Of a DNA stretch of 64,000 nucleotides, positions 10,862-12,451 are shown one piece after another. Within the stretch, counting starts at the first letter, position 1. Each line of letters opens with the position of its first letter. Both the position numbers and the translations under genes were made by a program. The DNA is from Bacteroidota bacterium (lineage in GTDB: Bacteria > Bacteroidota > Bacteroidia > NS11-12g > UBA9320), in contig WGNA01000020.1 in NCBI GenBank assembly GCA_016124755.1, positions 1 through 64,000 on the forward strand, given 5' to 3'. The notes beneath the pieces were generated by a model that saw only the letters and a list, made by a program, of their open reading frames with translations, made no database searches and was not told the origin of the DNA.

Positions 10862-11490
10862 GCAAATTCGATTTTCGCCTCTTCGATTTTCGCTTTTAAT
10901 TTTACCGCAAAGTCGCGCCAAGTTCTCCGCAATGGAACGCAACTTTTAAATTCCTTTTGGCATCAATTGGCAGAGGCAAATTCGTTTTTCGCCTCTTCGA
11001 TTTTCGCTTTTCATTTTGCCGCAAAGTCGCGCTAAGTTTCCGCAATGGAATGCAGCTTTTAATTTCCTTTTGGTATCAATTGGCCCAGGCAAATTCGTTT
11101 TTCGCTTCTTCGATTTTCGCTTTTAATTTTACCGCAAAGTCGCGCTAAGTTTCCGCAATGGAATGCAGCTTTTAATTTCCTTTTGGTATCAATTGGCAGA
11201 GGCAAATTCGTTTTTCGCTTCTTCGATTTTCGCTTTTAATTTTACCGCAAAGTCGCGCCAAGTTTTCCGCAGAGTAACGCAGTTTATTCCTACTCGAAAT
11301 CAAATTGCGTTACTCTGCGCATTAATCCGCGTTAATCTGCGGTTTGTTTTTTACCGCAAAGTCACGCCATATTTCCCGCAATGGAACGCAGTATATTCTT
11401 ACTCGAAATCAAATTGCGTTACTCTGCGCATTAATCTGCGGTTTGTTTTTTACCGCAAAGTCACGCTAAGTTTTCTGCAATGGAACGCAG
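10862..11490 (+). repeat. Left block of tandem repeat array (six units)
   Basis: Six copies of a unit whose core reads CCGCAAAGTCGCGCTAAG followed by CGCAATGGAACGCAG. Cores start near 10905, 11019, 11132, 11245, 11354 and 11453, giving periods of about 114, 113, 113, 109 and 99. Units 1-4 share spacer type A (GGTATCAATTGGCAGAGGC and TTCGATTTTCGCTTTTAA). Units 5-6 are preceded by spacer type B (ACTCGAAATCAAATTGCG, ACTCTGCGCATTAATCTGCG). CGCAG in the core and CTGCG in type B are inverted, so a transcript could form hairpins. No convincing gene lies in 10823-11630; open frames there are repeat artefacts. Confidence 0.95.
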
Positions 11491-11630
11491 GATATTCCAA
11501 CTCAAAATCCAATTACGCTAATAAGCGGCCTAATTGTCTGCATTAAAATCGACGTTCAGCAATCTTTTTAGCACGGTTAATTTTTTTTAATGGATAACCC
11601 TTAAATACATTTCCAATTTTGTAGCTTATT

Positions 11631-12008
11631 ATGAATGAAAACCAAATCAGCCGAATTGTGATAGGATGTGCATTCAAAGTTCATTCTGAATTAGGGCCCG
11701 GACTTTTAGAACATGCTTACGAAGAATGTCTTTATTATGAATTGTGTCAGCAAGGATTGAATGTAAACAAACAACAGGCTCTTCCATTGATGTACAACGA
11801 AGTTAAACTTGAAGCAGGTTACAGAGTTGATTTACTGGTTGAAAATAAATTAGTTATTGAAATAAAATCTGTCGAAGCTCTAAATGATCTCCATTTGGCA
11901 CAGATAATTACCTACCTCAGGCTTTCCAAATGCAAGCTTGGTCTGCTTATAAATTTCAATGTTAGAAATTTAAAAAATGGAATCAAAAGAGTTGCTAACG
12001 GTATGTGA
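11631..12008 (+). CDS. GxxExxY family protein
   Basis: 125 residues, ATG start. The family signature is present as GPGLLEHAYEECLYYEL (GxxExxY). It is followed by the nuclease-superfamily-like acidic core YRVDLLVENKLVIEIKS, in which D and ExK sit as in PD-(D/E)XK folds, and by HLAQIITYLRLSKCKLGLLINFN near the C-terminus. The length is typical of the family. Its biological role is not established. It lies alone, with six repeat units on its left and four on its right, and no partner gene, which suggests that gene and repeats form one genetic unit. Confidence 0.93.
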   Translation: MNENQISRIVIGCAFKVHSELGPGLLEHAYEECLYYELCQQGLNVNKQQALPLMYNEVKLEAGYRVDLLVENKLVIEIKSVEALNDLHLAQIITYLRLSKCKLGLLINFNVRNLKNGIKRVANGM

Positions 12009-12032
12009 ATTTTGTTTTGCTCGTTTTATTAA

Positions 12033-12451
12033 CCACAAAGTCGCCAAGTTCTCCGCAATGGAACGCAGTTTATTCCTACTCGAAATCAAATTGCGTTACT
12101 CTGCGCATTAATCTGCGTTAATCTGCGGTTTGTTTTTCACCGCAAAGTCACGCCATGTTTTTCGCAATGGAACGCAGTTTTTTTTGCATCCGCCGTAGCC
12201 ATAGCGTAGGAGGATTCGCTTTTCATTTTACCGCAAAGTCACGCTAAGTTTCCTGCTATGGAACGCAGCTTTTAATTTCCTTTTTGTATCAATTGGCCTA
12301 GGCAAATTCGTTTTTCGCTTCTTCGATTTTCGCTTTTAATTTTACCGCAAAGTCGCGCTAAGTTTCCGCAATGGAACGAAGTTCTTTTTACTTCGAAATA
12401 CCATTGCGTTACTCTGCGATGTACTTTGCGCTAATCTGCGGTTCAAAGTGG
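12033..12451 (+). repeat. Right block of tandem repeat array (four units)
   Basis: Four more copies of the same core start near 12033, 12140, 12231 and 12345, on the same strand as the left block. Both spacer types occur: type B follows the first core, and type A lies between the third and fourth. The last unit decays into an ACTCTGCGATGTACTTTGCG tail near 12450. A short unrelated insert (GCATCCGCCGTAGCCATAGC) lies at about 12186-12205. No gene is supported in 12009-12592. Confidence 0.93.

Follow-up and report, generated by a model that had tools for sequence, protein, structure and literature searches.

A GxxExxY gene among short repeats in a Bacteroidota genome: evidence for a probable REPIN-RAYT-like system with a PD-(D/E)XK nuclease

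The window analysed here, a stretch of 64,000 nucleotides from a Bacteroidota bacterium, contains a gene of the GxxExxY family standing within an array of short repeats, which raised the question of whether the gene and the repeats belong together. A sequence-only reading of the window had described ten same-strand units, six to the left and four to the right of the gene, and had considered it plausible that gene and repeats form a unit acting on these repeats or spreading with them. The array was found as described: ten + strand copies of the ACCGCAAAGTC (ACCGCAAAGTCRCGC) core were located at 10904-12442, with six units preceding the gene and four following it, and the array copies of TTTACCGCAAAGTCRC, ten in total in the window, were likewise all on the + strand. 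With up to three mismatches, the core had 23 matches in the window versus 4.9 +/- 2.15 in shuffles, and only two of the 23 fell outside the array. The features are as follows.

10904..10945, + strand, repeat unit 1, singlet (from repeat comparison)
11018..11058, + strand, repeat unit 2, singlet (from repeat comparison)
11131..11171, + strand, repeat unit 3, singlet (from repeat comparison)
11244..11343, + strand, repeat unit 4, inverted pair, REPIN-like, with 42-nt arms that are 74% complementary (ssDNA fold z, -5.5)
11353..11442, + strand, repeat unit 5, inverted pair whose arms have decayed (ssDNA fold z, -0.2)
about 11452..11535, + strand, repeat unit 6, a left unit followed by a decayed right portion, the closest unit upstream of the gene
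11631..12008, + strand, GxxExxY gene encoding 125 amino acids, PD-(D/E)XK family (TIGR04256, 9e-45; PF13366 [PDDEXK_3], 2e-43)
12032..12129, + strand, repeat unit 7, inverted pair, closest to the gene on its downstream side, with 92% identity to unit 4 across 142 nt (ssDNA fold z, -1.9)
12139..12185, + strand, repeat unit 8, singlet (from repeat comparison)
12230..12271, + strand, repeat unit 9, singlet (from repeat comparison)
12344..12442, + strand, repeat unit 10, inverted pair (ssDNA fold z, -4.1)

Two kinds of unit were thus present, singlets and inverted pairs with a loop. The four inverted pairs are approximately 90 to 100 bp long; in each, a short loop separates a left unit (ACCGCAAAGTCGCGCCAAGTTTTCCGCAGAGTAACGCAG) from a right unit with a CTGCGGT end. 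The two spacer types with inverted arms noted earlier are therefore real and have a simple meaning, being a left half alone or a left half plus an inverted right half. As single-stranded DNA, two of the four pairs folded far better than shuffles (-5.5 and -4.1) and two did not (-1.9 and -0.2). The immediate flanks of the gene lacked a clean inverted pair (inverted-flank score of 8.5), and the copy in the window is of the array type and partly decayed, as if units had multiplied in tandem around a core that has decayed. The gene had also been said to lack other neighbours; this held for only a few hundred base pairs, beyond which it has same-strand, uncharacterised genes to the left and to the right. 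An Rfam search of the window returned no family at the gathering threshold, and a CRISPR-like or group RNA feature was rejected on this ground. No plasmid-borne copy of the array was found.

The gene is full-length and intact, with the catalytic motif residues E22, D62, E72, K74, Q86, and Y90 (alignment numbering) all kept, and its product scored 151.8 bits against TIGR04256 (cut-off of 35) and 147.9 bits against PF13366 (cut-off of 22). The 4.05-Mb genome has only three GxxExxY genes. The window core repeat occupies 56 sites at approximately 25 places (reversed control, 2 matches), and further arrays of it adjoin unrelated genes (loci L035, L038, and L040), which, taken alone, looked like a refutation of the gene-repeat link. 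The second GxxExxY gene (C23) has its own four-copy array of a different repeat (L002, 1980-2600), which is local and is matched at only one further place in the genome, over a short length, so not every GxxExxY array spreads. The third (C22) belongs to another clade of the protein, has type I restriction-modification genes around it (L003), and is flanked by an inverted pair of the GTCTGAATC type (clade B) with a score of 17.5.

GxxExxY loci from this and other genomes were then compared with 596 random positions. Out of 119 loci, drawn from several phyla, 78 had an inverted-flank score above the 99th percentile of these positions (Mann-Whitney p = 1.7e-38), and 40 loci scored above every random control; the other 41, the window gene included, had no clear inverted pair. 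ParE toxin genes, picked as small accessory genes to provide a neutral control, yielded no locus above the threshold (0/30). They were used because the first choice of control, the four helix bundle genes (TIGR02436; 23S rRNA intervening-sequence family), turned out to carry inverted half-site arrays as well. Of 28 such loci in Bacteroidota (L202-L231), 17 were above the same threshold. These small genes resemble GxxExxY in lying between inverted half-site sets, but the protein is unrelated and the half-sites are about 7 bp long, with a period of approximately 7 bp and other sequences (AGTAATC, TTAGCTA, and GTCAAAT). They may be a second gene-plus-repeat family.

Repeats were also concentrated at the genes. 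Measured as 13-mers present at least three times within 3 kb, in the genome itself and its relatives, repeat coverage was 4 to 6% within 500 bp either side of the gene and near nil elsewhere (43 regions from 27 genomes). For 80 named loci it was 7.9% upstream, 3.6% downstream, and for the most part under 0.5% in far regions, giving an overall coverage of 4 to 8% within 500 bp versus about 0.1 to 0.3% elsewhere. Reading of the flanks attributed this enrichment to the enclosure of most GxxExxY genes by inverted units. The half-site of clade A, CRCDRRG, occurred 236 times upstream and 280 times downstream of the gene (80 loci, 150 bp each) versus 18 times in 119 control windows, a density about twenty times that found 3 kb away. 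The strand of the half-sites flips across the gene, from 179 on + and 57 on - upstream to 63 on + and 217 on - downstream, so that they point inward from both sides. By coverage, inverted flanks, and half-sites alike, the clustering of repeats at GxxExxY genes was far above chance.

Each clade A flank unit spans approximately 40 bp and comprises TTAACC followed by three or four half-sites 9 to 10 bp apart; this distance is the main peak of half-site spacing, with a minor peak at 21 bp. Often no more than 30 bp separate the left unit from the start codon, and often no more than 20 bp lie between the stop codon and the right unit, giving a compact element of about 0.5 kb. The end motifs differ with the protein. 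Clade A proteins carry the signature LGPGLLE..GYRIDLLVE..EIKSVE, whereas clade B proteins carry GNGFQEVIYQ..GTRRADF..ELKA and have GTCTGAATCnnGATT..GATT in place of the CRCDRRG half-sites (clade versus end motif, Fisher 2e-6 and 2e-5). The more alike two clade A proteins are, the more alike their flanks tend to be (Mantel r of 0.39, p = 0.0005), a relation to which recognition and shared descent could both contribute, as the Mantel test alone does not separate them. Clade C, in which active-site residues are lost, had repeats at none of 8 loci, with few related sequences to compare. A subclade with the signature LAHxxIGxAIEIHK (L112-L118) has replaced active-site residues and no repeats, and has possibly been repurposed by the host. 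A GxxExxY gene on a Fusobacteria plasmid (L306) has direct rather than inverted flanking repeats, AATCRGTGAAAAT..CAGATTTAATCCGTGTACCTAT.

The distribution of the repeats between genomes was examined with a strict end motif, AACCRCDRRGN{2,3}CRCDRRG, and its reversed pattern as the control. Among 61 Flavobacterium genomes there were 801 matches to the motif versus 6 to the reversed pattern. The 11 genomes without the gene had 0 to 4 matches and those with the gene up to 101 (Spearman 0.65, p = 1e-8). Among 61 Bacteroidota genomes of 25 families, 251 matches fell in the 29 genomes with the gene and 8 in the 32 without, the latter being background given that the reversed control had 24 matches in the 61 genomes. 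The Spearman correlation of gene and motif was 0.79 (p = 2.5e-14), with a rho of 0.82 for the means of the 25 families, a between-genome relation from which no direction of cause follows and in which relatedness is only partly controlled, by family means and genome size. One genome without a GxxExxY gene has 3 to 4 motif matches; as several end motifs exist, gene-less repeats of one type may stem from a gene copy since lost. A genome-wide repeat uncorrelated with GxxExxY genes had been named as the outcome that would count against the sequence-only reading. Most repeats here are not beside a gene, yet the correlation between genomes is strong, and together with the clustering it argues, on sequence grounds, for a unit that may act on or spread with its repeats.

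The copies away from the gene proved to be paired as well. Among the matches listed, gene-less motif matches up to 115 bp apart were inverted (+/-) in 25 of 32 cases. Twenty such pairs were read out as near-palindromes of 83 to 216 bp, 18 of them without overlap with an open reading frame, and one folded as single-stranded DNA with a z of -5.6. The hemW-cyclase junction, compared in 30 Flavobacterium species, exhibited several occupancy states: a complete element (L272-L275 and L277), a gene-less palindrome (e.g., L287, L288, L291, L293, L296, and L300), palindromes of other half-site types (L276, L278-L280; L281-L283, L297), or an empty site (L285 and L292). Movement was not seen, as neither a target-site duplication nor a polymorphism between strains could be resolved; the species at this junction are too diverged to define the joint. 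In two species (L272 and L273), the dS of GxxExxY was 0.106 and that of the neighbouring hemW 0.47, possibly due to recent transfer or gene conversion of the element. Concentric palindromes were also encountered, with one repeat type centred in another or with arms placed around a terminator-like hairpin (L317, L309, L314, L315, L322, L323, L325, and L326), which suggests that the palindrome centre may be a preferred entry point.

The nuclease-like core that had been attributed to the protein was borne out by the PDDEXK_3 match and by structural modelling. Across 121 relatives, E22, D62, E72, and K74 were 100% conserved in clade A, and Q86 and Y90 94 to 96%; in clade C, K74, E22, Q86, and Y90 were mostly replaced. 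We take QxxxY (Q86 and Y90) with E, D, and ExK to be the residue set of RecB-type nucleases. The AlphaFold (AF2) model, with a pLDDT of 95.8, gave a predicted RecB/Cas4-like PD-(D/E)XK fold: its best structural match was SSO0001 of the Cas4 family (Z of 10.1, rmsd of 3.4, 96 residues), followed by a Spirosoma restriction-endonuclease-like protein (3ijm, Z of 8.0) and archaeal Hjc (Z of 7.5, where values below 8 may reflect only a common arrangement). Foldseek gave one match at E < 0.001, and no PDB chain was related by sequence up to E = 1. Orthologues at one site had a dN/dS of 0.04 to 0.06, similar to that of neighbouring hemW, which shows purifying selection on the gene. In three related genomes (G064, G076, and G092) an 883-aa open frame includes the GxxExxY domain, a fusion to something larger. 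The Rpn (PDDEXK_2) recombination-promoting nucleases are also PD-(D/E)XK proteins, often annotated as putative transposases; they form another family, since the GxxExxY protein matches TIGR04256/PF13366 only, and we know of no flanking half-site arrays at their genes.

The closest known parallel is the REPIN-RAYT system, in which an enzyme gene lies between inverted repeats, the repeats are dispersed as inverted pairs, repeat types are matched to enzyme types, and abundance depends on the gene (PMC3116915). RAYTs are REP-associated tyrosine transposases (PMC3116915, PMC2817692). Both systems, which are mainly chromosomal, have a small enzyme gene with short flanking repeats, inverted at the 78 GxxExxY loci above but not at the window copy. 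Both have intergenic inverted pairs able to form hairpins (25/32 for GxxExxY among the matches listed), more than one group of repeats, every group going with its own type of enzyme, and a repeat abundance that depends on gene presence, seen for GxxExxY as the correlation between genomes. The differences are that the GxxExxY enzyme is a PD-(D/E)XK protein (PDDEXK_3/GxxExxY matches only) rather than a Y1/HUH transposase, that its end is composed of three or four half-sites 9 to 10 bp apart rather than a GTAG-tagged imperfect hairpin, and that a genome often has several gene copies with different motifs. The GxxExxY system would work like a RAYT system without being one, since the enzyme class differs. 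From the observed anatomy, the association and between-genome co-occurrence of gene and repeats, the conservation of the active site, the purifying selection, and the co-variation of clade and motif, we conclude that GxxExxY genes and the surrounding repeats probably constitute one REPIN-RAYT-like system in which a PD-(D/E)XK nuclease replaces the Y1 transposase.

We infer that such a system binds, cuts, and moves DNA, and propose the following as the likeliest mechanism. The full element would be the small enzyme gene between two inverted end units, and the same units placed head to head without the gene would be non-autonomous copies dispersed in intergenic DNA. The RecB/Cas4-like protein would bind as a multimer to the half-sites, which lie about one helical turn apart within each end unit, and would cut, with specificity for both structure and sequence, at or near the hairpin or cruciform formed by the inverted pair. 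Host repair might then copy or paste this pair, and on rare occasions the gene with it; the target would be a different intergenic site or the middle of a palindrome already present.

Alternatively, the unit of approximately 0.5 kb could itself transpose as a minimal insertion element, its end units being terminal inverted repeats and the gene-less pairs MITEs formed by internal deletion. A gene between terminal inverted units with gene-less derivatives is indeed reminiscent of insertion sequences with MITEs, and the compact unit, with ends adjoining the start and stop codons, fits this model. So does the distribution: up to 12 gene copies with different neighbours occur per genome, and phyla are scattered on the protein tree, with 12 phylum-label changes versus the minimum of 7 (on 116 columns with few forks resolved, and with metagenome bins that may hold foreign contigs). 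The lower divergence of GxxExxY than of hemW in one pair (dS of 0.106 versus 0.47) points the same way. However, the Flavobacterium GxxExxY copies read within one genome carry different end motifs and do not look like recent duplicates, some sites are orthologous in several species, and insertion sequences differ from this system, which lacks a DDE, HUH, serine, or tyrosine recombinase, has no visible target-site duplication, and has fast-diverging ends of repeated half-sites. To our knowledge, PD-(D/E)XK nucleases alone do not join strands. Relatives were absent from 50,697 phage records, on which ground a phage origin was rejected, and were present in 8 of 72,556 plasmid records; relatives with inverted or one-sided ends were also found on large replicons of Bacteroides, Bernardetia, Sphingomonas, and Gemmatirosa. 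We therefore regard self-transposition as unlikely.

It was also considered whether the inverted units are regulatory or RNA-processing hairpins, for transcription end or RNase III cutting, that control the gene or its operon. The upstream neighbour is on the same strand as the GxxExxY gene in 55 of 60 loci and both neighbours in 47 of 60, so the gene is probably read through from upstream; such co-directional contexts, the units adjoining stop codons, and the terminator-like hairpins enclosed by the arms of two gene-less pairs (L325 and L326) are in keeping with such a role, and the enzyme might have a host function with the repeats being regulatory. Nevertheless, control of the operon does not explain why tens of copies without the gene stand beside unrelated genes, why gene-lacking genomes have almost none, or why the motif matches the protein clade, which makes it quite improbable as a full account. 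An independent palindrome family into whose centres GxxExxY genes merely insert, as other palindromes and terminators do (L309, L314, L315, L317, L325, and L326), would account for the central position of the gene but appears very improbable, since gene-lacking genomes are at background only (8 matches in 32 genomes; control pattern, 24 in 61).

Among 5.4 million open-access papers, only two passing mentions of the GxxExxY family were found, and the string matches to the repeats were primers. The data point to a system of gene and repeats, not described before, whose spread would resemble that of REPIN/RAYT but with a different enzyme. More tentatively, with the odds in our view slightly against it, a stand-alone RecB/Cas4-like nuclease that recognises periodic half-sites and spreads inverted pairs with no known transposase, possibly by opening hairpin tips, would represent an undescribed class of mobile repeat system, present at least in Bacteroidota, Ignavibacteriota, Chlorobiota, Acidobacteriota, Planctomycetota, Verrucomicrobiota, Cyanobacteriota, and Gemmatimonadota. 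If the REPIN-RAYT-like reading is true, a very widespread protein family would gain a function, there would be an explanation for a large class of palindromes that lie between genes in Bacteroidota and elsewhere among the phyla, and REPIN-like repeat populations would have arisen with an unrelated enzyme. Each genome would then offer a short nuclease-substrate pair, the protein and its half-site ends.
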